46,757 bases of DNA from Actinomycetota bacterium (GTDB taxonomy: Bacteria; Actinomycetota; Acidimicrobiia; IMCC26256; PALSA-555), in NCBI GenBank assembly GCA_016870355.1, contig VGBR01000014.1:1-46757 (forward strand), given 5' to 3'. The notes below the pieces were generated by a model. The model made no database searches and had not been told where the DNA came from. It worked only from the letters and a program-made list of their open reading frames with translations. Positions within the stretch are counted from its first letter, which is position 1. Every line of letters begins with the position of its first letter. Below are positions 1 to 20,654 of this stretch, in pieces. Both the position numbers and the translations under genes were made by a program.

Positions 1-3000
1 CCCGGAGTAGGTCGTAGCGCTGTACGAACACGTCATACGCCCGGGTCATCGCGGCCACCCGGTCGGCGGGCTGGAACGGGGGCACGAACGGGCCGAGCTC
101 TACGTCGGTGTTCCCGTCGAGATACGCCTGCACGCGATCCCAGATCTTCACCCAGCCCCGGGCTTTGTTCCCCTTGGCCTCACCTTCTAGGTGCGCCTGC
201 AGGGTGCCGTGCTGGTGCCAGTCGCCGCACAGCTGCCGACCGTTCGCGTCGAAAACCATCTGGTGCTCGTAGGCTCGCAGCACCGGGAACTGCGAGTTGT
301 AGACGGCAGCCAGCCCGTCCGCCTCTACGCCCAGGATCAACGCCCCGAGCGCGTCGAGCTCGGTGAGGAGTAGCCACCGATCGAGCTCGGTTCGCACGGG
401 CACGCTCATGTCCCACGTCGTCGGCGGCGACGCGATCGACCTCGTGGCTCGCTCCGGCTGGCTGAAATCATCCTGGGCCCAACCGGGATCGAACAGACCA
501 TTCCAGAGATCAGCGAACTCGCGGGTGAGACAGTTCAGTCGAAGCGTGCGGTGCAGCAGCGGCGCGAGGAGGAGATGCTCGCCGGGCGGCGCAGGGAAGC
601 GAGCGACGACGTTGTCGTGCAAGTGGGAAGCACCGATCGCTCTGCATAAGAAGTCAACTAGTAAGCCGCTCATCATTCCGGCAAAGACCACGGTGGCGCT
701 GTCGTCCTCGAGCGCTCCCTGGTAGCAGACACTCATTGAGAGCGCATCCGGTGGAATCAGCGAGCAGAAGAGTGATCGGTAGGTGTTCGAGGGCACCATG
801 TCTCGCGCGAGCAACCTGTAGCGCTCGGTGCTCGGCTTTCCGTTCCACCGGGCGATCGCGGCATCGAATTCTGGACGGCTTGCCTTGCGCTGCCAGTTCG
901 TGCGCGGAATCACAGTCTCGGGCAACGACTCGAGGTCCAACGACTCGTAGTCCTGCTGGTGACGGCCGCTCGGGCGGGGCTGCTTCGCGAACGGCGTGCA
1001 GATGCCGATGTGCGGTCCTTGCAGGATGACCTCGTCCCATGACTGCGGGATATCGGTGCGCTCCTCGACGAGTCCACGTCTCATGTCTGACTGCTCGTGG
1101 AATCCCGGCGACCAGTAGTACGTCGTCTTGCCGAGCCGATGGGGGTAGCGCGCCATCGCGTCAGCAGCGTCGGCTTCCGCCGAGGTCACCGTCTTGACGA
1201 TCGGCGTAGAGGGCGGGTCGTCGGATGCGAGGAGCGCTGCCCAGGCGGCAAGACGCTCGTCGTCAACCTGCACGAGGCGCTCTGCGTGCGGACGAAGGTC
1301 CCAGCCGCCTTCGACGAGCTTGCGACCGGGGAGCTCGCCCGAGCCGTCGTGGCTGAGGCTGCGATCGACGACCGAAGGGTGGTAGAGGAACGCCGCCTGC
1401 ACGAAGTCCGGTGTCGACCGTTCGCCCGCGTACACATGAACGCCGTACTCGCGGGTGTCGCTGATCTCGCGGAACAGCATCAGCTCGTTGATGAAGTGCC
1501 AGTGGCGCCGGTACCGCCGGTAGGCGGTGGCTCGCAAGTTGGCGGCCTTTGGATCGCTGAGGAAGCCCTCGGGGTGAAGGAGGGTGACGACGCCGTCGGG
1601 ATGCTGGCGGCGCCAGGTGTTGGTAATGAAGAGCAGGTAGAGGTTGTTCTGCTGACCCTCGAGGAGCGGCTCGCGCGAGACGGCCCCGAGCAGAGCGTTG
1701 AGTCCTTCGTTCTCGGCCAGCTCCGCGGAGTACTGCGCGCGGGCCGCGTCGTCGGCGAGGGCGGCGGCTCGCCTCGCTTCGCGCACCTCCTGGGGGATGG
1801 CGGCGGTGACGGCGAAATAGGGGTCGTGCTCCGCGAGCGCGACGTCGTCGGACCACCGGGGGCGGACCCAGGGAGGGTTTCCGATCTGCAGTTGAAAGCC
1901 GCCGGCTGTGAAGATCGGCGCGAACTCGAGCTCCCAGTGGAAGAACCCCTGGGCCCGGGCGATGGCTTGGCACTCCTGGAGCCATCGGTGGCGCCCGAGG
2001 ACTTCGTCGACGGTCGCGCGCCCGAATCGCTCGACGGACTCGAGGGTGCCGTCCTCGAGCTCGTGGGCCGTGAACAGCGAGCCGGTATCGGCTGCGTCCG
2101 GTTGACCGAGGAGAAGCTCGGCGGCATCGAGCCAGCCGTCGAGGGTGGGGAGCTCGGTCCCGTTGGCGGGGGCCCACATCCACAGCGCGCACCAGGCGTC
2201 CATCAGCAGGCGCAACCGGGCAGCTGGGCCGTCGGGGTAGTCGAAGTCGGTGCTGCTTGCGGTGCCGGGATCGGGGAGCGCAGCCCGGTCCGCGCCCCAC
2301 ACGTCGATGGTCCGCTCGTGCGCGCGCAGGTGCCGGGCGACCTCCTTGGCGGCGGACGACCAGGCCGCTTCGACTCGCCTGGCGAGGGCAGTGGCGCGGT
2401 CGAGCTGAGCCCTGGTCGGCGACGCGAGGACTGTGCGCCGCCAGCCGCGAACGGCTTCGGCCCAGCTCTCGGCGAGGCCGGGCTCGGGACGCTTGCCCCC
2501 CTTCCCCCTGAGCTCGGGGGCGTCGGCGGCGATGCCCCAGCCCTCGCCGGGAAGCAGGAAGTGGTGGATGTCGGGCGCTTCGCTGAAGGGGACGGCATGA
2601 AGGGGCTGGTCCGTGGGTGGGACCGAGGGGCTGCTAGTGGACGCGACCCATGGCCGCTTCTTGGCCTCATCGATCGTGTAAGTGGCACGGCGGGCGCCGA
2701 TGAGGCTGTTGCCGGGACGGAGCCGGGCGCCGAACCGGGGGGCTCGCAGACCCGGGTGCATGCAGTTAAGCCACAGGCTGACTTCGGCCAGCTCGATGGC
2801 TGTTGGGTTCAGGTCGACGCCGTACGCCTGGTTGATCGCGAAGTGGGCCTTAGCCTTCTGGAGCTCGACCGGGTAGCGGTCGGGGTCGATGGTCTCGCCA
2901 GCTTCGTCTTGGGCTGCCTTGAGGTAGCGAGACGCGAGCTGGTTGATGGCCTCGTTCAGGAACGCCCCGCTGCCCAGCGCTGGTTCGCACACGGTGAGGC

Positions 3001-4734
3001 GGAGGATGTCGGACGGCGTGAGATCGGGATGCTCGTCCCAGTAGGTGTCCAACGTGTGCCGAACCGTGAACTCGGTGAGCACCTCAGGCGAGTAGTAGCT
3101 CGCTGAGCGCTGCCGGTCGCGACCGGCGAGCCGGAACACGAAGTCGCCTTCTCGGTATCGCACGCGCCGGGGTTGGCCATCGGGTCCCTCTTCGGTGAAG
3201 AAGACCTCCTCGGGAAACTCGTCGGCGCGCGTCACTGGGACGACCCAGGTACCGGTATCGGGGTCGGCGTCGCTGTCGAGCTCGTAGAGCTCCTCCGTGG
3301 CGAGGAACCCGCGGTACGCCATGAGGCCCTCGTAGACGGCGCCGAGCTGGTTGATGCCGAGGGTGGCGTAGCTGACTGCCTGGCGGGTCCGGCCGCGTTG
3401 CTCCTTCGTGAGGCACAGGTGGGCGAGCACCTGCTGGAGCGTGTGATCGGTGAGTCGGGCCCGGTCGAGGAGCGGGCAGGCGGTCCCCGCGAAGAGCGTC
3501 GAGAACAGCCCCGGGAACGTGAGCGCCCGGATGTCGGTGTCGAGCGTGGCCTCGCGTTCATAGCCGTCATTGACGAGGCGGAACAGGACGCTGAGCGAGT
3601 GCTGGAGATGTGTGGCGTTGCGGGCGTGGTCGCTCTGCAATGGGACGAGGGCGGTGTCGCGAAGCCGGGCGACGCTGTAGCCGGACTGGTAGTCAGCCTC
3701 GTGGACCGGGAGGATGCCGAGCTCGGGTCGGGCCTCGGCGTAGAGCAAGACGATGATCCGGTAGAGGTAGCGGAGGCTCTGCCGGGTGAGGTCGTCGGGG
3801 TCGATCTGCTGCCAGGCACCCTTCTGACGGTGGCGCACGTCGTGGACGACTGCATTCGCAAGGATCTCGACGCTGCGGCGGATGCCGTGACGGAGGTCCT
3901 TGGAGACGCCGGCAGACTCGTTGGCGGCCCGATCGATGAGCTCGGTGAGCACCGACTGCGCTTGGTCCCCAGGGTTGATGGCATCGGCGCCGAAAAGAGC
4001 GGCGATGGCCGCAAGCTCGCCGCGAGCCCGGTTGTCGCCCCGGGCGACGGCGTCGTCGAGGTTGACTCCGAGGTGAACCCCTTCACCCCAGCGATCCCGG
4101 TCGAGGATCGTGACGCAGCCGCCGGAGCACACGAGGATGTAGGTGGGGGGGTCGTCGGCGGTGAAGATGAGCTGCGCGGCCTCGAGGACCGTTCGCCCTT
4201 CGGGCTTATCACCGAGCCTGACGGGGTGGAGCAGGGTGCGGCCGTCTTGTCGGCCACAACCGTGGCGGGATCGGTGGCGAAGACGGTGTCGAAGGCGACG
4301 AGCAGCAGCCCGGTGGCAGTGCTGCATCTGGCTGCGACAGGGACATGGACGACCTTGTCTCCTGAGGTGAGCTCGATCGTCTCGTCGCGCGCGGGAGTCC
4401 AGCCGAGGGCCGCGAGGATCGCGTCGTTGAGGTCGGTGAGGGCGGTGACGTCGTCCTCGTCGAGGATGCCGAGATCGAGTCGTGTGTCGTTGTCAGCCAG
4501 GTCGGGAGTCGTGTTCGCAGCATCGGCGCGGTACTTGTCGAACGCGGTCGACAGGCTGCGCACCCGAGTGCGTGTCGTCGGGTCACCGTTGCGTTCGGAG
4601 ACGTCCCAGCGCTTGTAGAGCTCCTCGAGCCCCGCGTCGAGGCGGTAGCCGAGGAAATAGTCGCTGAAGTATCCGCGATTGGAGATCGACGGTAGGTGCT
4701 TCTCGGTGCTGGGGGAAGTGACGCGGCGGGGCAT
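1..4734 (-). CDS. Eco57I-class N6-adenine DNA methyltransferase, partial at left edge, with a -1 frameshift
   Basis: Large type II/DISARM-like adenine methylase; it should transfer a methyl group from SAM to adenine in DNA. The reading starts at ATG 4734, two bases after the SNF2 gene's stop, so translation is probably coupled. Residues 1-163 are in one frame; near 4246 the frame changes by one base (AAG-ACGGCC where AAG-GAC-GGC is expected). The continuation is convincing: RTVLEAAQLIFTADDPPTYI, then ASYYSPEVLTEFTVRHTLDT, the SAM-binding motif CEPALGSGAFLNEA (about 2960-3000) and the catalytic motif IGNPPWV (1865-1885). I read no stop from there to the edge (last residues VFVQRYDLLR), so more than 1,570 codons are present and the end is missing. 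The frameshift is either a real inactivation, phase variation or an assembly error. The identity as adenine methylase is firm; the assignment to a named system is not. Confidence 0.88.
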
Positions 4735-4736
4735 GG

Positions 4737-7607
4737 TCAGGTCGACGGGACGAGGGCGCCAAGCACCCGGATCAGAGGAGTGGGGGCGGGGGTGTGGTCG
4801 GCGATGAGGGCCTCGATCTGGCGCGTGACCCGGTTGATGTCGTCGAGACGACGACGCCGGTGGGGATCGGACTTGATGCCGTCTGCAATCTTTCTGGCGT
4901 CCTGTTGCCAGCGTTCGAGCCGGGCCCGTGTCGTGGCGAGCCGGTCTTCGACGTCGGCGAGCGGGCCTTCCATCCGATCGCGGAGGTTGGCCTCGACCGC
5001 GGCGGCGACCGGCGGAAGCAGTGCTTCGAGTGTGCTGAGGTCACCGGTCCAATCGGGGTTGACCATCCCAGCCTCGACACCGGCGGCTGTGAGCGCCTCG
5101 AAGAGGTCAGCGAAGGTGGCGAGCCCGTCCTCGACGGTGGCCGCGATCCACGCCGCGGCGATCGGCTCGCCGAGCCGGTTCGACCACATCCCCGAGACGA
5201 GGATCGTGGGGACGTCGACGTCGGCAGGAAGAGCGAGGGCTTCGTTGCGTTCGATGCGGAAGAGGATCTTGTCGGCGAGCCAATCGAGCACTGGGTGCTG
5301 GGGGCCGAGGTGGTGGACCTCCGGCCAGGCGGTGCCGGTCTCGCCGGCGTCGGCTTTCGCGTTGACGGCGTCATCGAGGGACCGGGCGGCAGCCTGATGG
5401 TCGCTCGTGAGTCGGAGGCGGCCACCAAGGTTCCGCTGGGCGAGGTACGACTGCGGAAGCGCATCGAGGCGGAGGAGGAGGTCGTCGGGCGGTTCGAAGC
5501 TGACGACGGGACCATCGGCTTCCCACGCGAGCTGGCTCAGATCGCCGTACACGAGGCTGAGCCCGGAGGTGAGGTAGTCGTCGACGCTGGCGAAGAGGGA
5601 CGGGAGTGGGCTCGCGGCGACCTGCATGTGCGTCGGCGCCGACAGACCACCACCGTCGAGGCCGGCGAAGGCCCAGGCGTCGAACCCGCGTGCCGTCGGC
5701 GCCGCGTCATCGAGAGCTTCAGTGCGAGCCTCTTCGGTGCGCTTGCGGAGAGCCGCGACCACGGCCTGCTCCTCGGCGGTCTCGCTGTAGAGGCCCATCA
5801 CCGAGCCGGCGTCACCAAGCGCCAAGTGAGCGACGTTCTCCTTCTCGATGAGCTTCGTCACGACACGCACATCGCTCGCCACCTCGGCGTCGGCAGGGTC
5901 GTAGATGAGGTAGCGGATCTCGGGCGAGTGCCGCTGGCCGTAGCGGTCGATGCGTCCGTTGCGCTGCTCGAGCGTGATCAGCGACCACGGCAAGTCGAAG
6001 TGGATCAGGTGGTGGCACTGCTTGTGCAGGTTGACGCCCTCCGATGCGATGTCGGACGTCACCAGCACGCGGATGGGCGCTGAGGCCATCGAGAAGCTCT
6101 CGACCATCTGCTGCTGCTCGTCGTCGCTCTTGGAGTTGTGAAACGTCTGAACCTGATCGTCGCTCATGCCGAGCTCCTCGCGGATCGCATCTGCGATCCA
6201 ATCGAGCGTCCGCAGGCGCTCGGAGAAGATGACAACCCGCGTCGCAGACATGGGTCCGACACCGATGCCGCGCAGCGTCTCGGCCAGCGCAGCGAGCTTC
6301 GCCGGCGCTTGGTCGATCGCCTCTTGAGCAGCGATCCAAAGACGACGAAGTGCCTCGGCCTCCTCGTCCTCGACGGGGATCTTCGGATCTTTCAGCACCT
6401 CGAGCCTGCGACGGGTAAGACGGTGCTCGATCGTCTCGGAGAGCGCCGCCGGCGACGACAAGGCCGCCTTCAGCAGCGTGTAGGGGAACAGCCGGTCTTC
6501 GCACGGCGCTGCGCGATCCGCGTTGAGCCAGGTCGCGCTGAGCTCCGCGAACACCGCCTCTTCTGCGGGGCTGGGAATCACCGGAACGGGCAGGGGTTCG
6601 GCACGCTCGGCCCACTGATCGCCGATCGCGGCTTTGACATCGGGCGAGTGCTTGTGGCGTCGTACGACGAGGTGAGCGATGTCCGCGGCCGTGACGCGTT
6701 CAGGATCAGGCACTGCCGTAGGGTCGAGCAGCGAGACGAGCTCGGCGAACGATTCGGGCTTGCCGTTGTGCGGCGTGGCCGATGTGAGGATGAGCGCATC
6801 GGCATTCGGCGCCAGCACGTGGGCGAGCGCGTTGTTGTACGTACCGCGGTTCACGAGCTTGTGGGACTCGTCGATCCACACGACGTCCCAGCGGACCCGC
6901 TCGAGGTGATGACGCCACCGGCTCGGGTTCTTCAGCGTGTCGATCGAGACGATGACCCGATTGAAGTAGGTGAAGGGGTTCCGCCCGGCCGGGATTCGCT
7001 GCTGGACGCGCTGGATGCCCTGGGAGTCGAGACGGACGAGCGGGAAGGCACACCGGCACCACAGCTCGTGCTGGACCTGATCGAGGATGTGTCGCGGTAC
7101 CACCGCCAGCACACGGTTGGCTCGGCCCCGGCGCTGCAGCTCCATGAGGAGCATTCCGACCTCGATCGTCTTGCCGAGCCCGACGGCATCCGCCACGAGC
7201 AGGCGCGGTTGGAGCTGAGTCGTGGCGAGGCGGAAGGGTTCGCGCTGGAAGGGTAGGTCGTCCGCGAGCATCTGATGGCCGACCGTGAGGCTCGTGTTCG
7301 ACACGGGAACCGGGGTGCGACGGACGAGGCTGTCGAGCACGAGCCGGGTCTCGATCCCGCTGGGCGAGGTGTCGAGCCGAAATCGCGTGGCGGCTGGATC
7401 CTCGGGTTCGATGCGGTCTAGGTCCGAGAAGAAGGATGCGGCTTGGTCTCGGACGAGCTCGTCACGGCCGACGCATCGGATGATCGCCGAGGAGCCCATG
7501 GCATGGCGCTCCACCTCGAGTACCTGCCAGGTCTGGTCGCGAACGATCACCCGGGAGCCGGGCGCGATCAGGTCGAGCTGGCGAGCATCGGTCGCAGGTT
7601 CCGTCAT
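4737..7607 (-). CDS. SNF2/HepA-like DEAD/DEAH helicase (DrmD-like candidate)
   Basis: SNF2-family ATPase of 956 residues that should translocate on double-stranded DNA. Start chosen at ATG 7607 (MTEPATDARQ) because AAGGAA lies six bases upstream; an in-frame start at 7640 lacks this. Visible motifs: Walker A ADAVGLGKT (about residues 139-147), Walker B WIDESHKL, motif III LTSATPHNG, motif V TSDIASEGVNL and motif VI QRNGRIDRYGQRH. The C-terminal third is unassigned and ends in a charged, probably coiled-coil stretch (RARLERWQQDARKIADGIK). It lies 38 bases after the upstream helicase gene and two bases before the methylase. A SNF2 ATPase followed directly by an Eco57I-type methylase is the drmD-drmMI order of class 1 DISARM as I remember it, but other methylase-helicase defence modules share this pair. 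Confidence 0.9.
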   Translation of the reverse strand: MTEPATDARQLDLIAPGSRVIVRDQTWQVLEVERHAMGSSAIIRCVGRDELVRDQAASFFSDLDRIEPEDPAATRFRLDTSPSGIETRLVLDSLVRRTPVPVSNTSLTVGHQMLADDLPFQREPFRLATTQLQPRLLVADAVGLGKTIEVGMLLMELQRRGRANRVLAVVPRHILDQVQHELWCRCAFPLVRLDSQGIQRVQQRIPAGRNPFTYFNRVIVSIDTLKNPSRWRHHLERVRWDVVWIDESHKLVNRGTYNNALAHVLAPNADALILTSATPHNGKPESFAELVSLLDPTAVPDPERVTAADIAHLVVRRHKHSPDVKAAIGDQWAERAEPLPVPVIPSPAEEAVFAELSATWLNADRAAPCEDRLFPYTLLKAALSSPAALSETIEHRLTRRRLEVLKDPKIPVEDEEAEALRRLWIAAQEAIDQAPAKLAALAETLRGIGVGPMSATRVVIFSERLRTLDWIADAIREELGMSDDQVQTFHNSKSDDEQQQMVESFSMASAPIRVLVTSDIASEGVNLHKQCHHLIHFDLPWSLITLEQRNGRIDRYGQRHSPEIRYLIYDPADAEVASDVRVVTKLIEKENVAHLALGDAGSVMGLYSETAEEQAVVAALRKRTEEARTEALDDAAPTARGFDAWAFAGLDGGGLSAPTHMQVAASPLPSLFASVDDYLTSGLSLVYGDLSQLAWEADGPVVSFEPPDDLLLRLDALPQSYLAQRNLGGRLRLTSDHQAAARSLDDAVNAKADAGETGTAWPEVHHLGPQHPVLDWLADKILFRIERNEALALPADVDVPTILVSGMWSNRLGEPIAAAWIAATVEDGLATFADLFEALTAAGVEAGMVNPDWTGDLSTLEALLPPVAAAVEANLRDRMEGPLADVEDRLATTRARLERWQQDARKIADGIKSDPHRRRRLDDINRVTRQIEALIADHTPAPTPLIRVLGALVPST

Positions 7608-7645
7608 GTGGAATTCCTTCGCGTCGTGGTGCTGAAGCACGCCTC

Positions 7646-10600
7646 TTACGCCGTGAGCGAGGGGGGCGACAAGTCGATTCGAAGCCGCTGCACGAGCTCG
7701 GCCAGCTCGTCCGGCGGGATCCGGTCAGCGAGGTAGTGGACAAGCTCTTCCTGGCGCGGTTGACCGAACGAGAGGCGGTAGGCCGCCACGCCCTTGAGCA
7801 GTCGATCGAGCTTGCTCAGGTCCCGGCTCAGCGGAAGGAGCGGCAGGTGGCGCTCGATCCGAGCCGGTGACCCCTCGGGGCAGAAGACCCAGTAGGGCGA
7901 CAGCTCTCCATCGGTGTCGCCCGTGGCCTTCGCAGCGCTGGCGAACATCGCCGCCCACGGGTCAGAAACCCGTTCGGCGAACGCGCGGTCCCCCATGGCC
8001 GCCGCGACGTTCTTGCGAATCGCATGTCCCTTGTAACGATGAACTCGACCCTCGCGTTGCTCGAAGTCAACGGGGTTGGTCGGGAGGTTCCAGTGCACGA
8101 CCGAGTGCGAGTAGAGGTGGAAGTCGAGGCCCTCCTGACCGATCGAAGTGGTACTGAGCACGAACGGCCAGAACGGTGAGTTGAACGCCTCACTCGCCTG
8201 TTGCGCACGCTGGGCCCGCTGCTCTCCTTCGATGGACTTGTCGCCGAAGCGAATCGCGAACCGTCCGCGCATCGTGTGCCGGTCAACCGCAATCCCAGTG
8301 CGCTTGGCGCGCGGGATATCAGTGGCGTAGCTGACGGCCCGTAGCGTGAGCGCGTTGCACGCCGTCTCCGCGAGATCCTGCAGCATTCGCTTCCTCTTCT
8401 TCTTTCCCAGGAAGCCGCGCCAGTCGCGAAGCACATGCAAGTACTCGTCGAGCATCGCTTGCAGGTTCCCAAGGGCCCCGTATTCGAAGACGCCCCGCCA
8501 GTAGATGTCGGTACCCGAGACCGTCCGCACGATGGCTGTGGCTTCTGCACCGTTGAACAGAGAACGGAAGCCCCATGCCATCCTGGCCGAGGCGTTCAGC
8601 AGGTCGGGATCCCACGACACGGAGCCGCTCGCGAGGCGACTGAGCGCACGCAACGCTGCGAGGGCAGGACTACCCATCGCACACGCGACGAGCACATCGA
8701 CCAGGTCGTCGGGCACTCGACCGAGTGGCTCCGATGGGCCCTCGAGCACGAAGTCTTCGGCCACATCGCGGTGCGCGCCGAAGTTTCCACCTTCAGCATC
8801 GTCTTCATCACCGGTCCACACACTCGACCAAGCCTCACGCTCCCACCACGTGCGGGTTGCGGCTTCATTCTCTTGAAGATCGAGGAGCAGCGGTGCCGCC
8901 CAGTACCAGCGTTGGTCAACGACGCCGGTCTTCGGCGCGCGCTTGATCTTGTCGGCAAGCGCGGCGGTCACCCGCTTGCGAATCTCTATCTCAAGAGCTG
9001 CGCGCGTCATCGGTCCGCTGCTGTTCTTCTCGTGCAAGATCTGGACGGGATCCGTCATGCGGGCGAGGGCCGGGAACGGAACCACGACCAAGAGGTTCGC
9101 CATCGACTCTGGACGTCGGCTCTCCATCTTGAAGTCGAGCAGCCGAGAGGAGCGCTTGCTGTACGCGTCGTATGGCTGCGCGTCTGCCTCCTGCGCCGCC
9201 GAGAAGAGGGCCCGCTCCGCGTCATAGCTGAGGATCGCTGAGATCACCTTTGGCACGAGGTTCCATGCCGAGAACACCAGACGCTTGGAGAACCCGCGGG
9301 CTGCATCGGTCTCGAACGCTGAGCCCGCGCGGTAGTAGGGCAGCGCGGGCGGGAGCCACAGGAGCTGCCAGAGGTCGCGTCCCACGGTGTCGTCGACCAA
9401 GGCTCGAAGTCGCGCGTTGGCTGGGTCGACGGTGGCGTACGCCTGCACATCCTCCCAGCTCAGGAGACCGCGACCCTTCTTGACGAGGTCGTGCAATCCC
9501 TCGGGAACGAGTCCTTCTGCGGTGCGCTCGTCGAAGGCGTGCTTCAGCGCGTAGCCCTCCATGAAGTTCAAGAGGTACGGCCCTGACTTCCAGAACTCGA
9601 CGACGTCATGCTGACCGAGCAGCCTGGCGGCCGTGGCGGTCGCGACATACCCCTCCACGTCGCTCTTCTCGAGCGTGATGCTCGGCTGGACAGCGGTGAG
9701 CATGCCGCTGCGGTCAGGTGTGGACGCAAGGCGCTCGGTCCTCGCCATCACCGGGCGCAGCCGCTCCGCGACGCGCTCACACGCCGTGAGCGCGGTCGCA
9801 CCTTGATCTCGATCGAGGCTGAGCAGACCACGGCGCAGCTCCTTCAGATCGCTTCGAAGCGCCCCGGCGCTTTCCTCGCTTCGAAGCAGGAAGCGCGCGG
9901 TGTGGATGAAGTCCTCGAAGTGATCGTCGCCCTGGCCGTCGTCGGCGGTGGTGTACGGACGGTAGGGCGTTGCCGAGAGCAGCAGCGTGCGAGTGAGTCG
10001 GTGGGTCTTCGGCTCCTCGTAGTCGAAGAGCTCGTGCGCCAGCTGCGCGCCCCAGCTGGGGTTGTTCGGATCCAACAGGACGCGAAACCGCTGGAACTCG
10101 TCCAAGATGACGAGGTCGGGCTGCAGCGCTTCGATCCCGACAGTAGCGAGCGCGCGACGCAGCTCCACGATGAAGCGGTTGCGCTGGCGGCGGTCACGGT
10201 TGGTGTAGCCATCTTGATACGCGAAGGCCTTCGCTAGCTGGTTGAACTCGACCTTCACGGTGGGTCGATTGTTCTCCCGGCGCAGATCGTTCAGGTGCAA
10301 CAGCTGTTGCTTGAAAGCTCGTATGACGCCCGCTGACGGCTCGCTCTCGTCGGCCTTCGCCTTCAGTCTCCGCCGAGCCTTTCGATCGTCTTCGATTCCG
10401 AGATAGAAGACTCGCTCTTCCCCGCTGCCGCGCACGACATCGTGGCCCCAGACCTCTCGGAGCACCGCGTACAGCAGCGCTCGCTCACGGAAGTTGCCTG
10501 AGCTCTGACCGAACTCCAGGCTTGTTCCTGGAGTGACGGCGATGAGGTTCAACTCCCGTTGCTCGAGTCGATCGATCTCGTTGGCGAGCAGCGTCAGGCG

Positions 10601-10909
10601 ATCGGCTTGGGTGATCGCGTCATCGTCAGCGATGTTGAGCTTGCGGAGGTTCTGCCGGGCGATCGCTGCGTTGGAGCAGATGTAGACGATGTCGACCCTT
10701 CGGTCTCCGATGGAACGGAGATGCTCGACAACCTGCGCGATGACGCCCCGAGCGACGAGCGTCTTCCCGAGCCCAACCTCGTCAGCGACGAGGAACCGGG
10801 GCGTTGCATCGTTGGCGTCATACAGACGCGCGTATGCGTACTCGGCCGTCACGCGCTGGAACAGCTTGAGGTCTTCGAGGACCTCTGTGCTCGACTGCAC
10901 CGCGCTCAT
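7646..10909 (-). CDS. Large SF2 helicase of a helicase-PLD-DUF6361 module
   Basis: DEAD/DEAH-like SF2 ATPase, 1087 residues. Start at ATG 10909 (MSAVQSSTEV), which overlaps the PLD gene stop as ATGA. Motifs: Q-like LFQRVTAEYAYARL, Walker A VADEVGLGKT (41-50), Walker B LVILDEFQRFR (DEFQ rather than DEAH), LLLSATPYRPY, motif V TSIGQEGLDFHLYS, and motif VI DFEQREGRVHRYKGHAIRKN. About 450 residues separate the two helicase halves, an unusually long insertion with no domain I can name. The 'GQEGLDFHLY..VVHWNLP..P.D.EQR.GRVHRY' block is typical of helicases in phage-defence islands. Immediate partners are the PLD protein and the DUF6361 protein upstream and the SNF2 and methylase genes downstream, all closely packed. 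Confidence 0.88.
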   Translation of the reverse strand: MSAVQSSTEVLEDLKLFQRVTAEYAYARLYDANDATPRFLVADEVGLGKTLVARGVIAQVVEHLRSIGDRRVDIVYICSNAAIARQNLRKLNIADDDAITQADRLTLLANEIDRLEQRELNLIAVTPGTSLEFGQSSGNFRERALLYAVLREVWGHDVVRGSGEERVFYLGIEDDRKARRRLKAKADESEPSAGVIRAFKQQLLHLNDLRRENNRPTVKVEFNQLAKAFAYQDGYTNRDRRQRNRFIVELRRALATVGIEALQPDLVILDEFQRFRVLLDPNNPSWGAQLAHELFDYEEPKTHRLTRTLLLSATPYRPYTTADDGQGDDHFEDFIHTARFLLRSEESAGALRSDLKELRRGLLSLDRDQGATALTACERVAERLRPVMARTERLASTPDRSGMLTAVQPSITLEKSDVEGYVATATAARLLGQHDVVEFWKSGPYLLNFMEGYALKHAFDERTAEGLVPEGLHDLVKKGRGLLSWEDVQAYATVDPANARLRALVDDTVGRDLWQLLWLPPALPYYRAGSAFETDAARGFSKRLVFSAWNLVPKVISAILSYDAERALFSAAQEADAQPYDAYSKRSSRLLDFKMESRRPESMANLLVVVPFPALARMTDPVQILHEKNSSGPMTRAALEIEIRKRVTAALADKIKRAPKTGVVDQRWYWAAPLLLDLQENEAATRTWWEREAWSSVWTGDEDDAEGGNFGAHRDVAEDFVLEGPSEPLGRVPDDLVDVLVACAMGSPALAALRALSRLASGSVSWDPDLLNASARMAWGFRSLFNGAEATAIVRTVSGTDIYWRGVFEYGALGNLQAMLDEYLHVLRDWRGFLGKKKRKRMLQDLAETACNALTLRAVSYATDIPRAKRTGIAVDRHTMRGRFAIRFGDKSIEGEQRAQRAQQASEAFNSPFWPFVLSTTSIGQEGLDFHLYSHSVVHWNLPTNPVDFEQREGRVHRYKGHAIRKNVAAAMGDRAFAERVSDPWAAMFASAAKATGDTDGELSPYWVFCPEGSPARIERHLPLLPLSRDLSKLDRLLKGVAAYRLSFGQPRQEELVHYLADRIPPDELAELVQRLRIDLSPPSLTA

Positions 10910-12741
10910 CGTCGGAGCTCCTCGGCGACGGCCCAAACTGGCGCCCAGATGGCCATCAAGCTCTGCGGAACGATCGCCTGACCCTCGGGCTCCGCCTGCA
11001 GGTCGGCGAGCAGGCGCTGCACATGCTCGAGACGATCGGGGTCACGAGCAAGCGTCCGAAGCAGCGCCTCGAGCAGCGGGATCGCGTCCATCAACACCTG
11101 CCAGCGACCCCCGTCGGGGTCGTCGAGCCCTTCCAAGATCTCTGACAGCCCCGGCAGATCGGCCGTCTCGTCGGCCAACAAGAGCAAGAGGTAGCGCAGG
11201 AAGCGCTCGGCGTCGCCGAGCAGCATTCGAAGCAGTCGGCTGGACCGGTTCGCGGGTGCTTCCTCGAGGTCGGCCCTCAACACGAACCGCGTCATGACCT
11301 CACCGAGCACGATCTCGCTGGCGAGGAACGCAGTGATCCCTTCGAAGGAGACAGCGAACTCGATGTCTTGGGCGGCGGCGCTCACCGGCTTGGCCGCCCC
11401 CTCGGAGCCTGTGATCGGCCAGCACCGCCATGTGGCCCCTTCCGGAAGCTGTGGAAGGGACGACTGCCACGAGAAGGAGAGCGTGAAGTGATTGTCGTCG
11501 CCGGCCGAAGCGGCACGTGCTCGAAGCGGCACCGCCGCAATCGACCGACGGAGCGAGTCGAGCTCGTCCGATGTTGAGTCGAGGGCCGCAGGCGCATCGA
11601 CGTCGGGGACATCGAACGGAACCAAGAACGATCGGAGCGTCTGAACGTCCTTCGTTGGCTCGGCCAGGAGCTTCTCGACGCCAAGTTCAGAGCGCGGTCC
11701 GACGAGCTCGGTCAGGAACTCGACGTTTGAGCCGAAGCCTGCTCGTGTGGCGTTTGCAGAACCTGTGAAGACGGTTGATGTCGTGCCCACATCGAACACG
11801 TACAGCTTGGCGTGAAGGCCTTCGAACGGGACGCCGGGGTCTTCGCGACTCGCTGATTCGGCCGCCGCCTCTACGGCCAGCGAGGCATCAGGATCCAGAG
11901 TCAGCGTCTCATCGAAGACCTCGTGAACCTTCTTTGCGCACGCTGCCATCTCTTCGGGCCTCGAGATGAGCGTCCTTCGCCCACGCGCTCGCGGCAGCTC
12001 GTCGATCAGGGAGCCACTGAGGAAGGGAGAGATGACCGCGAGGCGGTCGGCCCGACGCGGGAATGGTGAGCCATTGTTGGAGTGCTGCAGGCCCAGCGCT
12101 CGGAACGTCCCACCCGAGAACCCGTCCGGAGCCGCCCATCGCACAGCCTGAAGCTCAGCGCTCAAGCTTGTCAGCGCGCTCCGGCGCTCATCGTCGAGCT
12201 TCCCCACGACCAGATCGGGAAGCGCAGCGACGAGGCTGGCCAGCTCTCCCGACTCGAGCAGCGCGCGGCTCGACTCGGAATCGTCAGCCGAGTCAAGGCG
12301 CAGCATCGTGTCCCAGGATCGGTCGAACGTGAGGTTCCGAGACGCGCACAGCAGCCGATAGGCAGGGGCCGCTTCAGGAGCGTCGAATCGAAGCACCCAC
12401 ACCTTCGGATGAAACACGCCACCGAGCGGCGCGGTCACAGGTATGAGCGCGCCTTCTAGGTAGGCAAAGAGCCGACGTTGCACGGGAACGGTGACCTGTC
12501 CCGCTTGAAAGAAAATCGTGAAGCGATCGGCGTGACGGCGAAGTGAGTCAAGGAGCTCGAGAGGCTCCACGCCGCGCTCCTCTTGAGCGACGGCGGCCGC
12601 ATGCAATGCGAACGCAGCGGGCGCGGTGAGCGCGGCATCGAGGTTGAGCGAGAACGTGGTGCCTACCGCCATCCCGAGGCTGTAACCAGGGGGTGGCCGC
12701 AGCGCATCGAACAACGTGAGGCGAGCGTCGGGTGCGAGCAT
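10906..12741 (-). CDS. Phospholipase D-like nuclease-fold protein
   Basis: 611-residue protein with two PLD half-sites: HPKVWVLRF followed by CASRNLTFDRSWD in the N-terminal part, and HAKLYVFDVG followed by FTGSANATRAGFGSNVEF in the middle. HxK plus GSxN is the catalytic signature of PLD-family nucleases and DISARM DrmC-type proteins. The first site has SRN in place of GSxN, so the two halves are not equivalent. The C-terminal 200 residues are Leu/Asp/Glu-rich and unassigned. The ATG at 12741 follows the DUF6361 stop directly (TAGATG), and the gene's own stop overlaps the helicase start (ATGA). This tight three-gene packing implies fixed stoichiometry, and I infer a nuclease plus motor complex. 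Substrate unknown; DNA is most likely from context. Confidence 0.85.
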   Translation of the reverse strand: MLAPDARLTLFDALRPPPGYSLGMAVGTTFSLNLDAALTAPAAFALHAAAVAQEERGVEPLELLDSLRRHADRFTIFFQAGQVTVPVQRRLFAYLEGALIPVTAPLGGVFHPKVWVLRFDAPEAAPAYRLLCASRNLTFDRSWDTMLRLDSADDSESSRALLESGELASLVAALPDLVVGKLDDERRSALTSLSAELQAVRWAAPDGFSGGTFRALGLQHSNNGSPFPRRADRLAVISPFLSGSLIDELPRARGRRTLISRPEEMAACAKKVHEVFDETLTLDPDASLAVEAAAESASREDPGVPFEGLHAKLYVFDVGTTSTVFTGSANATRAGFGSNVEFLTELVGPRSELGVEKLLAEPTKDVQTLRSFLVPFDVPDVDAPAALDSTSDELDSLRRSIAAVPLRARAASAGDDNHFTLSFSWQSSLPQLPEGATWRCWPITGSEGAAKPVSAAAQDIEFAVSFEGITAFLASEIVLGEVMTRFVLRADLEEAPANRSSRLLRMLLGDAERFLRYLLLLLADETADLPGLSEILEGLDDPDGGRWQVLMDAIPLLEALLRTLARDPDRLEHVQRLLADLQAEPEGQAIVPQSLMAIWAPVWAVAEELRR

Positions 12742-13977
12742 CTACTCGCCTTCGTGGTCGGCAAGGTCATCGAGGATCTGCCGAGCGCTTCTCCAGCGAA
12801 AGGCCATCTGGGATCGACTGAAGGGCTGGCCGTTCCAGTTCTCAAGGGCGCGAGGCTGGGTCAGCCGGGCGAGATTGCGCTTGAGCTGTCGCTCTCGTTC
12901 CACCACGAGCTCGGCGGCCTTCGTATCGGGTTGGACCGCCGACGGATCGGCGAGCGCAAGGTCAGCCCACTGCAGGACGAAGCGCCGCGCGCGCGGGTTG
13001 ACGGGTGCTCGATGTTCGATCGTCGCCCAGAACTCCTCGCCCTGAGACCACTCCCGCAGCTCAGCGCGACGGCCGTCTACGAGATTGCACCAATCCTCGA
13101 GATCGCTCGTGAGCGTCTCTTGGAGATCAACCGTGTCCCATTGCAACACTCGCTCCGCCTGCCGAGCCAGGAGAATGTTGTAGAGCACTTGCGCGCCGTG
13201 CGTGATCTCGGAGAAGCATCGAGCGTGATGCAGCACTCGCCGGACGCGCGCGCTCGGTTGGTGCAACGGAACGTCCCACGGGAGGTCGGGAGTGCGGTCG
13301 ACATCGAGATCACGCGCGAGCTCGCCCAGCATGGACTCAGGATGTGCCGTCACGATCTTGCCGACGAGGTACTCGCTCTCCGTCCTTGTGAGGGCCAACG
13401 GGAGCGCAGCGGTGGGAAACCCAGGCGGCGCCTTCGGGAGATCTGGGTCCCACATGCGGCGCGCGGTCGAGACTCGTTGGCCGTCGTCGTCGACATCGAC
13501 CAACACGTCGGCAGTCGCGAGACGGTGAGCGATGCCGCGGTACTCGGGAATGGAGAGCCTGAGCAATCTGATCTCGAACGCGTGCACGCCGTTCCAGTAG
13601 ACGGATGAGGGGAATCGCTTCAGGCGAGCCCGCGCACGGTGGCCGATGACACCGTCACTCGGACCGGCGAGCTGCCGCAGCGATTCGATGAGCGTGATCT
13701 CCAGCTCTTTCAGGCGGCGGTTGAAGTCGCCGGGCGACGTCCGCTCGTGTTCGAGCATCTGCATGATCCAGGGCACGAAGAAGAAGTACCGGGCGCGCGT
13801 CTGGATCGTGCTGGTCCCGGGAAAGAGCTGGTCCGAGAGAGAGTCTCGGATGACGCCGAAGCCGAGCGAGTCGATGGTGTCCTTATCGTCGAAGGCTCCG
13901 AAGACCTCGCGCATCTGATCCGCGGCATCTTGGTCGTAGTCGAGCCACCCGAACGACGATTCAGGCGTGACGGCCAT
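12742..13977 (-). CDS. DUF6361 family protein
   Basis: 411-residue protein recognised from its N-terminus (GWLDYDQDAADQMREVFGAF, then LGFGVIRDSLSDQLFPGTS, then ARYFFFVPWI), the pattern I associate with DUF6361. No catalytic motif of a known enzyme is visible; the protein is rich in Arg, Asp and Trp. The start is ambiguous: GTG 13980 or ATG 13977 within GTGATG, both overlapping the DUF429 stop. It is followed at once by the PLD protein and the large SF2 helicase, which is the reason for treating the three as one module. Function unknown; a sensing or scaffold role in the helicase-nuclease complex is only inference. Confidence 0.75.
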   Translation of the reverse strand: MAVTPESSFGWLDYDQDAADQMREVFGAFDDKDTIDSLGFGVIRDSLSDQLFPGTSTIQTRARYFFFVPWIMQMLEHERTSPGDFNRRLKELEITLIESLRQLAGPSDGVIGHRARARLKRFPSSVYWNGVHAFEIRLLRLSIPEYRGIAHRLATADVLVDVDDDGQRVSTARRMWDPDLPKAPPGFPTAALPLALTRTESEYLVGKIVTAHPESMLGELARDLDVDRTPDLPWDVPLHQPSARVRRVLHHARCFSEITHGAQVLYNILLARQAERVLQWDTVDLQETLTSDLEDWCNLVDGRRAELREWSQGEEFWATIEHRAPVNPRARRFVLQWADLALADPSAVQPDTKAAELVVERERQLKRNLARLTQPRALENWNGQPFSRSQMAFRWRSARQILDDLADHEGE

Positions 13978-14636
13978 CACGACGCTCGCACTCGCGTCGG
14001 ACGTGGCAACCAGATCGCAGAGCCGTCGTGATCTGGATGGTCGTGGCTGGCGCAGACCCCGTCGTCGCCGTCGGCTGCTACGACGGCGGCGGCCATGGCA
14101 TCCAGGCCGTCATGGGACCAGTGCTCGATTCCCGTTGGCAGGGTGACGCGTGTGGCCAGTGCTGCGACCCGCGCTCGCCGTCCCGCAGCTGTTGCCTTGC
14201 TGGGCATCTTCCCTCCAAGTGCCAAGAAGACGGCGTGTGGATAGGTCTCGCGCGGCTCGTGCGCGGCCTGTCGCAGTGTCGTCCACACGGAGAACCCTGT
14301 GACCATCCAGCTGCTACATGCCGACTTACGAGAGGGAGTGACCCACGGGGCCCATGCTTTGTGCTCTTGTCCCGGGGCAATCTCGCAGCAGCGCGCAACG
14401 CGGAACTTCTGGCTCAGCGACCGGTCACGGCTGTGACGTCGACGACTCAGCGCACTCGGCGCGTCGATCGCCACCCTGTCGGCCGTCTCGCAGAACGCCG
14501 TCAGCGTCTCATCGTCCCCCGCGTCGATGATCGCCGCCGTTCTAATGCGGAGCTTCCCCCGCTCTCCACTACGCAGCCGAACTGCGTGAACGAGCCGGCC
14601 GCCGAGATCGATGCCTACGAACTCGCCCGCGCTCAT
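13977..14636 (-). CDS. DUF429 family protein (predicted RNase H-fold nuclease)
   Basis: 219 residues. Start chosen at ATG 14636 (MSAGEFVGIDLGGR) because it forms an ATGA overlap with the upstream helicase stop; a longer reading from 14714 would run far into that gene. The order GIDLGG, AIDAPSAL, RCCEIAPG, ETYPHAVF and HDGLDAMAAAVVAA matches the DUF429 family, predicted to have an RNase H-like fold with conserved Asp/Glu residues near the first strand, the IDAP turn and the final DAMAAA helix. It is translationally coupled to the RecB-helicase fusion upstream, suggesting a shared nucleic-acid role. The biochemical activity of this family is not settled as far as I know. Confidence 0.8.
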   Translation of the reverse strand: MSAGEFVGIDLGGRLVHAVRLRSGERGKLRIRTAAIIDAGDDETLTAFCETADRVAIDAPSALSRRRHSRDRSLSQKFRVARCCEIAPGQEHKAWAPWVTPSRKSACSSWMVTGFSVWTTLRQAAHEPRETYPHAVFLALGGKMPSKATAAGRRARVAALATRVTLPTGIEHWSHDGLDAMAAAVVAADGDDGVCASHDHPDHDGSAIWLPRPTRVRAS

Positions 14637-17600
14637 CTGCCCTCGCTGAGGGTGTCCATCTCGACGAATCGACACAATGCGTTTGCCAGCGGCACCTGGC
14701 CGGCCGTGGTACACAGCACCTTCAAGAGCGCGGGACTTCCCACGACGACGCTCACCGCGCGTGCTCGCGACACCGCCACGTTGAACCGGTGCAGGTCATA
14801 CAGGAAGCTCATGCCACGTGGAGCGTCTTCCGGCGTCGACGTCGCCATCGAGTAGATGCTGACCGGTGCCTCTTGGCCCTGGAACTTGTCGACGGTCCCG
14901 ATGCGCGCGCCGTCTGGAAGGTGGCGTCGCAGGCAAGCCACCTGCGCGTTGTACGGGGCCACGACCATGATCTGGTCAAGCTCCAGCGGTGCCGACCTCT
15001 TCTCGTGATCCCGCCAAGTTCTGCCAAGCAGAGAACCGATCAGAGCCGCGATGGCCTTGGCCTCCTCTGGTGAGCTCGTCCGATTCCCCACGTGATCCAC
15101 GGCGACGAACTCGAGGCCCGACACGCCACCAACCGCCTGGTTCTCTCGATCTGGCGCAGAGACGAGGCGGCTCTCGTAGACGACCTCGGAGATGAATGCA
15201 GTGATGGCGGGATGCATCCGATAGGTCGCGTCAAGGAAGAGACCTCGCTCGGGCGGGATCGTCTGATGATCCCCGAGCACGTGCTCAAGCGCCGACGCGC
15301 CTGCACCATCGGGATGGCTCGCTTGTGATGGCTGCGCCAGCTGCTGGGGATCTCCAAGGAGCACCAAGCTCTCCGCTGCACCGCTCACTGCCAGCACGTT
15401 CGCGAGGGAGAGCTGACCGGCCTCGTCCACGAACAGGAAGTCCACGCTGTGGCGCATGTCCTGACGCGCCCAGAGCCACGCCGTGCCTGCGGCGAGCTTG
15501 ACCTGCCCATCTTGAAGCGCGGTGAGCACTCGGTCATTGTCCGTAGCGCGCTCGATGTGATCGACGTCGCAGTGCTCGAGCTCCTCACACCTCTGGATCC
15601 CCACGAAGGTGTCGCCCCGGTCGAGTGCGACCTTTGCGATCTCCTTCAACAACGTGCTGATCGCGGCGTGCGACAGCGCTGTCACGCCTACCCGCTTTCC
15701 CGCCTTGATGAGGTCGAGGATGACGTGGGCACCCGTGAACGTCTTGCCGGCACCGGGCGGACCTTGAACCGCGAGGCAGCTGGAGGCGAGCTGCGGCACG
15801 AGTCGTCGGGCAGCTTCCAATGGCGTCTCCTCGGGACCGGCGAGCGTGGTGCCCTCTCGACGGTTGAATACGCGGGGCGAGCGAGCGAGCAGTAGGTCGC
15901 GACCGGCGCGCCATTCACCCTCGGCATCCACGCCGTGCTCAGCCACCCATTCCGCAAGCTCGATCAACGCATCGCGCTGCTCTCGGTCGCGGAGTGGCGG
16001 GCACGGGATCAGTGACCGCGGGTGCGGCACTTGGCTCGTTGCACCGCGCCTCAGGTCGATCGTTCCTTCGGCGTCGTCGACGCCCATGACGAACCCGGCC
16101 GAGTCTTCGGTTGCTGGGTCGTAGGAGTACTGACCTCGTCGGATCTTGTGATCTTGCGGCTCGAAGCGATATCGATGGATCTCGGACTTCTTGACGGTTC
16201 CGACGACCCCTTCGTACGTGAGACCCCCGATGCAGTCGGGGTCATCGACGAAGTCCTCGTCCACCATGTCGCGCACACGATGGAAGAAGAGCCACCATCC
16301 CGGCTTCGCCTCGCGTCGATGCCATTGCAACAAGTCACCGAGGAGCCAGCACGCACTCTCCTCTTCGGAGCGCGCAGCTTCCTCCGTCGGGATCCCGTCT
16401 CGCAGGCGATCCGTGAGGTCGTCGAGGTACTGCTCGTGCTCCGTCAGCTCTTCGGGCGGAGCACCGTCGCGCACAGCGGGGCGAGGTATCGGGCCGAATG
16501 CATCTTCAGCCTCCGCGCGTCGCTGCTCGAGCCACTCTTGGAGGCCCACGAGCGACAAGCAATCTTCCTCGTTGTAGGCCGCGATCTCGTCGAGAAGGCG
16601 CTGCTCGCCGTCGACGAGCCACTGCTCGTACGTGACGATGCTCGAGCCGGCGTCCATGACCTCGGTCGCCTCGCGAGTGAAGTAGCACCGCTCAACTTGC
16701 TTGAGCGAGTACGACTCGGTCGAGAGGCGCATCGACTGTCGAACGACTTGGTAGAGGTCGACCAAGGCTTCGGAGCGCAGCAGAGCATCGACTTCGGACT
16801 CTCGGGTGCCGTGCAGCCCCATGAGACGGCTGATGGCGGTCCGCTCGTAGGGCGCGTAGTGGTACACGTGAGCGTTGGGGTCCTTGCCGAGCCGGTCGGT
16901 GATGAGGTCGATGGCTTGCTCGAACGCCAGACGTTCTTCAGCGCGTGTGTGGGCCCAGAAGCGGTGGTACACGGGCGCGCCGTCGACGACCTCCACGATG
17001 CCGAACAGGTACTCCAAGCCTCCATCGAGCGCGTAGGGATCGCTCTCCAGGTCGAGGAAGACGTCGCCGGGCGATGGCTCGGGCAAGGCGGCAAAGCCCT
17101 TCTCCGGGCCCTCCTCATCCGGGACCTCGGGTTCAAGAAGCTCCCACAGAGGGGTGGCGGCGCCATCACCCTTCACCTGCAAGGCGGCTTGGGCACGGAG
17201 CCGTTCGAGCGCAGCCGCGCTAATAGAGAGGGTGTCGGTCCCTGGCTCCATCCCGGCCAGTGCCGCCCGGCTGGTGATGCCCGCAGCGACGAGGTGTCGG
17301 GTCTGGTCTCTGCGCATGCCGGCAACGAGGGACAGGTGATCGTCGGCACGTCGCTGCCTCGCACACTGGGCACCCCACCGACAGATACGGCAATGGTCAA
17401 CCGGCTCGGGATACGTGTCGCCGTCTGATCCTGCGAGCGCCCCAGCGAGGCGGCTCCGGAGCGCGCGGTAGTACGCGGCGAGGCTCGCCAGCCGGTACGT
17501 GTGCGTCTCACCGTCGCCCGTCAGCACATGCACATGGTCCGGAGGGACACCCTGGATGCGCTCGACGTGGTCGGAGTAGGCACACACCTGCACGAGTGCT

Positions 17601-18043
17601 GCCGCCTTCACGGAGCGTGCGAGCTTCGCATCCGCGACCTCGTAGCTCCACGCGCCGAGATTGGGACTTGGTGTCTCCACCCACGTCAAGTAGTCGGCGT
17701 GGCCGACCCAGCCGTCATGGAAGAACGTCGCCTGGTAGATCACGTCGACGCCCTCGCGCATCGCATCCTCGGTAGCAGTGGCGGCTGCTTCTAGGTCGGC
17801 CCTGGTCTTGGTGATTGGTGCGATGTCAGCCATCGTCCGTCCACCGGCCGCGAGCTCAGCGAGCAGCTTTGCCTCGTGCTCACCGCCGAGGCGCGAGAGG
17901 ACATCGAGCAGCGGGTCGTTTCGCCTTGGCCGCTCGAGCTTGCCTGCCGCGACCAGCGAATTGAGGTGCGTGAGGTGCGCGCAGGCAGAGAAGCCGGTGA
18001 GATCGCTGGGGCTCAGGATCAGCTCGCCATCGAGGAGCCTCAT
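14633..18043 (-). CDS. TM0106-type RecB-like nuclease / RNase H-like / SF1 helicase fusion
   Basis: 1136-residue three-part enzyme. The N-terminal RecB-like nuclease has D117 (VGHADYL), D138-A-K140 (YEVADAK) and Q152, with Cys 21, 218, 221 and 227 (CRICRWGAQC) placed like the Fe-S cluster of Cas4/AddB nucleases. The middle part is an RNase H/DEDD-like domain (FLDLESDPYALDG ... HYAPYERTAI ... YNEEDCLSLV). The C-terminal SF1 helicase has Walker A QGPPGAGKTFTG, Walker B FLFVDEAGQLS, GDPQQLAQP, TVDKFQGQEAPV and FNVAVSRARAV. It resembles a self-contained end-processing machine for DNA or RNA-DNA. A promoter-like TGTCCCA element lies 30-51 bases upstream, so it may start its own transcript. It overlaps DUF429 by ATGA. 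Confidence 0.92.
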   Translation of the reverse strand: MRLLDGELILSPSDLTGFSACAHLTHLNSLVAAGKLERPRRNDPLLDVLSRLGGEHEAKLLAELAAGGRTMADIAPITKTRADLEAAATATEDAMREGVDVIYQATFFHDGWVGHADYLTWVETPSPNLGAWSYEVADAKLARSVKAAALVQVCAYSDHVERIQGVPPDHVHVLTGDGETHTYRLASLAAYYRALRSRLAGALAGSDGDTYPEPVDHCRICRWGAQCARQRRADDHLSLVAGMRRDQTRHLVAAGITSRAALAGMEPGTDTLSISAAALERLRAQAALQVKGDGAATPLWELLEPEVPDEEGPEKGFAALPEPSPGDVFLDLESDPYALDGGLEYLFGIVEVVDGAPVYHRFWAHTRAEERLAFEQAIDLITDRLGKDPNAHVYHYAPYERTAISRLMGLHGTRESEVDALLRSEALVDLYQVVRQSMRLSTESYSLKQVERCYFTREATEVMDAGSSIVTYEQWLVDGEQRLLDEIAAYNEEDCLSLVGLQEWLEQRRAEAEDAFGPIPRPAVRDGAPPEELTEHEQYLDDLTDRLRDGIPTEEAARSEEESACWLLGDLLQWHRREAKPGWWLFFHRVRDMVDEDFVDDPDCIGGLTYEGVVGTVKKSEIHRYRFEPQDHKIRRGQYSYDPATEDSAGFVMGVDDAEGTIDLRRGATSQVPHPRSLIPCPPLRDREQRDALIELAEWVAEHGVDAEGEWRAGRDLLLARSPRVFNRREGTTLAGPEETPLEAARRLVPQLASSCLAVQGPPGAGKTFTGAHVILDLIKAGKRVGVTALSHAAISTLLKEIAKVALDRGDTFVGIQRCEELEHCDVDHIERATDNDRVLTALQDGQVKLAAGTAWLWARQDMRHSVDFLFVDEAGQLSLANVLAVSGAAESLVLLGDPQQLAQPSQASHPDGAGASALEHVLGDHQTIPPERGLFLDATYRMHPAITAFISEVVYESRLVSAPDRENQAVGGVSGLEFVAVDHVGNRTSSPEEAKAIAALIGSLLGRTWRDHEKRSAPLELDQIMVVAPYNAQVACLRRHLPDGARIGTVDKFQGQEAPVSIYSMATSTPEDAPRGMSFLYDLHRFNVAVSRARAVSVVVGSPALLKVLCTTAGQVPLANALCRFVEMDTLSEGR

Positions 18044-20261: not shown

Positions 20262-20654
20262 CTACGGCGCTGTTGTACTCGTCAGATCGGTTCGCAGCTG
20301 GAGCTCGACCTCCGTCACCGCGTCCATCCAACCTCGCAGCTCATCGATTGTCGGATCCAGCTCATAGGCGTGCACATGGCACGCACGGCTCAGCGCAGCC
20401 CAGAGCTGGTTGATCTCTCGGCCGAGCTCGGGGTCTTTGAGGTACGTCTCGAGGCACAGCAGCTTCGGACGCCAAGCGCGGGACTGCGCGACAGCTGTTG
20501 CACGATCGGCCCAGAAATCGTCGATCGCGATCTCAAGAGACTGTCGCGTGAGCAACGCGACTGCCCGCGGCCACCGTCCGGCGAGATCGGCGGGAGGATA
20601 CGCCGAGAGTCGACGAGCGACGTCGAGCAGCTCACCTGCCGACGTGGCGCTCAT
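20262..20654 (-). CDS. HEPN-like small protein coupled to the SMC-like ATPase
   Basis: 130 mainly helical residues. The motif R90-A-C-H-V-H95 in LWAALSRACHVHAYELDPT fits the R-x4-6-H signature of HEPN ribonucleases, which is placed in the last long helix as here. ATG 20654 overlaps the ATPase stop (ATGA). A HEPN protein beside a zinc-hook ATPase is a recurring toxin-sensor arrangement in anti-phage systems (RloC and PrrC carry the RNase in the same chain). The family assignment rests on this motif and length only, so it is moderate. Confidence 0.65.
   Translation of the reverse strand: MSATSAGELLDVARRLSAYPPADLAGRWPRAVALLTRQSLEIAIDDFWADRATAVAQSRAWRPKLLCLETYLKDPELGREINQLWAALSRACHVHAYELDPTIDELRGWMDAVTEVELQLRTDLTSTTAP

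Follow-up and report, generated by a model that had tools for sequence, protein, structure and literature searches.

A three-gene locus in an Actinomycetota bacterium matches the anti-phage system Azaca

Azaca (ZacA-ZacB-ZacC) is an anti-phage system that Millman et al. reportedly tested against phages. It is named as a defence system having a PLD domain (PMC10952713), and PMC12278908 names ZacC as its helicase; Millman et al. 2022 is the work cited for it by PMC13321033, and a 2026 review places it among the systems of unknown mechanism (PMC12926258). No paper in the literature we searched was found to mention DUF6361, and none joins Azaca with AddAB.

The DNA analysed here, which we call the window, is a 46,757-nt stretch of contig VGBR01000014.1 (GCA_016870355.1) from an Actinomycetota bacterium, and all positions refer to its forward-strand numbering. 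Three consecutive genes on the minus strand (7646-13977/13980) encode, in this order, a protein of the DUF6361 family, a PLD protein with two half-sites and an ATPase of SF2/SNF2 type. The first of these, zacA (12742..13980), encodes 411-412 aa, with an ATG at 13977 and an in-frame GTG at 13980. It is followed by zacB (10906..12741, 611 aa), a PLD-superfamily nuclease gene, and by zacC (7646..10936), for which there are two candidate starts, a TTG at 10936 and an ATG at 10909; the latter, which lies in the ATGA overlap with zacB, is the probable one. The zacA-zacB junction reads gagTAGATGctc (TAGATG) and the zacB-zacC junction reads cgATGAgcg (ATGA), in agreement with the initial annotation.

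Profile matches leave little room for doubt about what these genes are. The ZacA model of PADLOC-DB matches the DUF6361 protein over residues 8-408 (E = 2.7e-112), the ZacB model matches the PLD protein over residues 1-609 (E = 2.3e-160), and the ZacC model, 1019 positions long, matches the ATPase end to end (residues 15-1091, E = 0, 1065.8 bits). All three components are thus present, adjacent, in A-B-C order and on one strand, and the triad is almost certainly Azaca, in a copy that is complete and looks intact, with its motifs preserved. The initial annotation had proposed a possible uncharacterised defence unit. The defence role stands, Azaca being cited as a defence system, but "uncharacterised" has to go: all three genes are named Azaca components in PADLOC-DB, and Azaca is cited in several papers. 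In the same way, the view that DUF6361 has no known role still holds biochemically, but the family now has an identity, ZacA. The triad is a member of a system already catalogued, and the identification takes it off the list of unknown candidates. The new results are an all-alpha model of ZacA, predicted with high confidence, the recognition of an SNF2-type core in ZacC and of where its largest insertion lies, and the invariant half-sites of ZacB; the conserved residues, the ZacC core and the ZacA model are also handles for mutational tests of Azaca.

Linkage of the three genes and their neighbours

When the genome contigs of 84,980 species were scanned with one short ZacA peptide pattern, 444 stretches were found to encode a ZacA relative, and the best 80 of these 444 were kept for comparison. 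Among those 80, 59 loci have at least 6 kb of sequence beyond zacA, and in 58 of the 59 zacB and zacC follow on the same strand in the order A-B-C; in the sole exception (L065) zacB is broken. Shorter contigs are consistent with this order as far as their sequence reaches, and 74 of 75 loci have a zacA-zacB spacing of -30 to +40 nt. The order is found in archaea, Actinomycetota, Pseudomonadota, Chloroflexota, Cyanobacteriota, Bacteroidota, Bacillota and others, as well as on plasmids from Halomarina to Bradyrhizobium, and even the most divergent plasmid copies (~22-28% identity) keep it. The window's proteins are ~22-60% identical to the other copies compared, the nearest relative being L016 (54-60%). 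On Haliscomenobacter plasmid pHALHY01 (L014), zacABC separates the M/S genes of a type I restriction-modification system from its R gene. All three genes also occur on one scaffold labelled "phage" (L015), a label that is unverified, and no ZacA relative was found among the IMG/VR candidates.

A survey of 396 genomes of the window's own phylum gave the same picture, DUF6361 being present wherever ZacB or ZacC was present. Two genomes carry only N-terminal DUF6361 fragments, without zacB or zacC (L103, 8093-8920, and L105, 7505-7780, both on the plus strand of their contigs); these are probably decayed Azaca loci. The idea that DUF6361 is an orphan family, or one with varied partners, was rejected on the 58 of 59 ordered loci and the phylum survey; the initial annotation had named just such a pattern, DUF6361 mostly alone or beside unrelated genes, as the one that would refute it. 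The pairwise distance matrices of ZacA, ZacB and ZacC across 73 loci correlate at r = 0.95-0.98, and we conclude from this that the three proteins have been inherited together. Co-inheritance is not proof of physical contact; it makes a single complex of the three plausible.

The upstream genes are as tightly coupled as the triad is within itself, and the downstream ones begin within a few bases of it, so that tight junctions do not delimit the triad. On the upstream side, a DUF429 gene meets zacA in a TGATG junction, and a gene for a RecB-like nuclease-helicase of the TM0106 family (14633-18043) meets the DUF429 gene in an ATGA junction. On the downstream side, a DrmD-like SNF2 helicase gene (4737-7640, minus strand) opens 5-38 bases after zacC, followed at once by a gene for an Eco57I-like type IIG methylase resembling DrmMI (2-4734, minus strand; PADLOC REase_MTase_IIG, E = 5.8e-275); other DISARM genes are not nearby. 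The methylase is split over two frames, its N-terminal part running from 4734 and the rest from ~4240, and looks frameshifted, whether in reality or through an assembly error.

Since the flanks are coupled in this way and other loci show no constant neighbour, we take the boundaries of the module from comparison rather than from junctions. Neither a DUF429 homologue nor the DrmD-like and methylase pair in the window's arrangement stands next to any of the 80 other zac loci (the best 80 of 444), and a full-length homologue of the RecB-like helicase is nearby in only two of them, ~1 kb upstream in L054 and downstream in L080. By this comparison of gene neighbourhoods, neither the upstream nor the downstream neighbours appear to belong to Azaca, and the initial annotation's description of a separable module, together with its proposed check that DUF6361 keeps its PLD and helicase partners across genomes, is borne out: the order A-B-C persists while the flanks differ. 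The DrmD-like helicase and DrmMI/IIG-like methylase next door also raised the idea that the triad belongs to a DISARM-like locus; we set this aside because the pair does not accompany other zac loci.

The wider surroundings are rich in defence genes, including, besides the type IIG methylase, a type IV enzyme with PLD, ResIII, Helicase_C and DUF3427 domains (23186-26284, minus strand; PADLOC mREase_IV, 4.5e-286). Adjoining the latter is an SMC/RecN-like ATPase gene (20651-23095, minus strand), a homologue of which directly follows zacC in L102. The island extends over ~1-29.6 kb of the window, and two adjacent WYL/WCX proteins (31043-32910, plus strand) signal that ordinary chromosomal genes resume.

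The three Zac proteins

ZacB carries the catalytic signature of the PLD superfamily, two HxK...N half-sites, and matches Pfam PLDc_2 (1.6e-5). The first half-site, H111-P-K113 ... R-N136 (12334..12411, minus strand), has its H, K and N invariant in all 75 homologues compared, with R118 sitting where HKD enzymes have D, so that the Asp of HKD is absent there. The second, H310-A-K312-x4-D317 ... G-S328-A-N330 ... E341 (11719..11814, minus strand), does have the Asp, and its H, K, S, N and E are invariant in the same 75. The two half-sites are thus unequal, as the initial annotation had it. A family profile of the second half of ZacB matches the PLD domain of PDB 7clg (E = 6e-7), a PLD-helicase protein which we take to be SauUSI. 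The invariant residues and this match support ZacB as a probable active phosphodiesterase, and nuclease activity would follow from the same motifs and folds.

ZacC has two RecA lobes, motifs I-VI and an SNF2-like core. Its motif I (GLGKT, 10760..10774, minus strand) includes K58, present in all 64 rows having letters at that position; motif II reads DEFQ (10091..10102, minus strand), as first annotated, and is invariant in 65 of 65 homologues, as is motif III, SAT (residues 321-323; 9968..9976, minus strand). Motif IV corresponds to residues 551-558, and motifs V-VI (TSIGQEGLDFH ... QREGRVHR; 8036..8149, minus strand) likewise hold invariant residues. The single helicase insertion of roughly 450 residues first described is there as extra sequence, but in two stretches rather than one: ~225 residues separating motif III from motif IV, and a larger stretch of ~315 residues that interrupts RecA2 after motif IV and before motif V (residues ~590-905; 8222..9169, minus strand), placed by the secondary structure of the model and by alignment and modelled as helical with a terminal beta-hairpin. 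Because the ZacC model matches residues 15-1091 end to end, these insertions are a feature of the family. The AlphaFold2 model (pLDDT 86.9, pTM 0.89) has a core resembling the SNF2-type dsDNA translocases SRCAP, SWR1, INO80, ALC1 and Rad54 (Z ~16 over ~440 residues). At the level of sequence, Pfam SNF2-rel_dom gave no match in ZacC, and its profile gave no useful match to solved structures. The motifs and the predicted fold point to an enzyme that would translocate on DNA.

ZacA matches Pfam PF19888 (DUF6361; 5.8e-50), and its AlphaFold2 model is all-alpha (pLDDT 90.7, pTM 0.87). Against the PDB this model gave no clear match with Foldseek (best E = 1.9) and, with VIA-align, matches to scattered helical bundles only (best Z = 4.6); the sequence profile, compared with solved structures, gave no useful match either. 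The absence of a PDB match does not amount to the demonstration of a new fold.

Mechanism and composition of the system

These features suggest direct restriction as the likeliest mechanism, to which we give an even chance. ZacC, with its SNF2-type core predicted by modelling, would use ATP to move along dsDNA, and in moving would carry or activate ZacB, delivering the nuclease to phage DNA. The two PLD half-sites of ZacB, whose residues are conserved, would together form one active site for the presumed cutting, and the all-helical ZacA may be an adaptor or sensor that either ties ZacB to ZacC or recognises a state of phage DNA. Phage DNA would in the end be cut, either as it enters or as it replicates. 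Complex formation, DNA as the substrate, the order of events and the role of ZacA are all, as stated here, what we infer from the predicted parts.

The same identification is compatible with a different division of labour, in which ZacC, as a sensor of nucleic acids, would keep ZacB inactive until it frees the nuclease to degrade DNA indiscriminately, a form of abortive infection. In Hachiman, which also pairs a helicase with a nuclease, the helicase is the sensor and sets the nuclease free (PMC12278908), but the likeness of the ZacC core to SNF2-type dsDNA translocases fits movement on DNA, the fold itself being silent on gating, and we hold abortive infection to be possible but somewhat unlikely. 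A larger system, with the DUF429 protein and RecB-like nuclease-helicase, the DrmD-like helicase and IIG methylase, or all of these as required subunits, is suggested by the single direction of the genes, by junctions that overlap or nearly do, and by the RecB-like homologues close to L054 and L080. The comparison of neighbourhoods given above tells against it, as do the nearest relative L016, which has an AddAB-like pair instead, and the best relative of the RecB-like gene (G418, 56%), whose genome gave no ZacC match; we regard required flanking subunits as highly improbable.

The pair in L016 raises the question of whether Azaca instead has a dedicated AddAB-like end-processing pair, for which the RecB-like gene, found in that place in the window, would be a local substitute, ZacABC then attacking prepared DNA ends. 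Of the best 80 of 444 loci, 13 have, immediately upstream of zacA, a gene for an AddA-like protein that combines a UvrD helicase with a PD-(D/E)XK nuclease, and in most cases an AddB-like gene comes before it. Twelve of the 13 are among the 63 loci with at least 3.3 kb upstream. The pair is seen in L016, L042, L059, L060, L066, L069, L072, L073, L075, L079, L085, L087 and L090, and also in L011. The ZacC tree requires at least six changes between having and lacking the pair nearby. Ten alphaproteobacterial genomes with the pair also encode a separate AddA elsewhere, at ~30% identity, and the zac-linked pair is therefore not the housekeeping copy. These observations favour a dedicated pair, but most Azaca loci lack it, and a reverse search found a ~60-70% identical pair on plasmids without DUF6361 (L125-L130), beside BREX (L125, L127), Shango-like (L128, L129), multiubiquitin/ThiF (L126) and restriction endonuclease (L130) genes, the version found there being the alphaproteobacterial one. 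A dedicated pair is accordingly improbable, and the initially strong case for AddA and AddB as fourth and fifth Azaca genes was weakened by the same reverse search and set aside. From its distribution the pair appears to be a promiscuous helper or a defence module in its own right rather than an Azaca subunit, and it looks like a portable component of defence islands, distinct from housekeeping AddAB. If it functions with Azaca, BREX, Shango-like and ubiquitin-like loci alike, it would be a shared DNA-end-processing helper of such islands. A bolder extension of direct restriction, in which ZacA, with an all-alpha fold not seen before, senses the state of phage DNA and licenses a ZacC-driven PLD nuclease, with Azaca often drawing on a portable AddAB- or RecB-like end-processing module shared by unrelated defence systems, is speculative, and we think it unlikely as a whole.

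Comparison with known systems

Set beside the Azaca described previously, the window shares all three families, the gene order and full-length matches; it differs in its neighbours and, at ~22-60% identity, in sequence. SauUSI-type IV enzymes, and the window's own protein at 23186-26284, likewise couple a PLD nuclease to an SF2 motor, but they do so in one polypeptide with DUF3427, whereas Azaca consists of three proteins, one with two PLD half-sites and one being DUF6361. The arrangement of PLD, helicase and DUF3427 in a single chain was not found in the triad, whose PLD and helicase are separate chains and which has no DUF3427.

DISARM (DrmA, DrmB, DrmC, DrmD, DrmMI) also combines a PLD protein with SNF2-like helicases, and ZacC is weakly similar to DrmD around motifs V-VI. 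ZacB, however, matches DrmC at only E = 0.058, no DrmA lies next to the triad, and the combination of DrmB and DrmA with DrmC was not seen, there being no DUF1998 match among the nine proteins scanned around it.

In INO80/SWR1-type remodellers, RecA2 is likewise interrupted by a large insertion between motif IV and motif V. INO80, SWR1 and SRCAP, with their split lobe 2, thus share with ZacC both the core fold, as modelled, and the place of the insertion, the insertions themselves being comparable in position alone. Hachiman (HamA-HamB) and Gabija, lastly, have the logic of helicase plus nuclease in common with Azaca, a logic that the three systems realise with different protein families.
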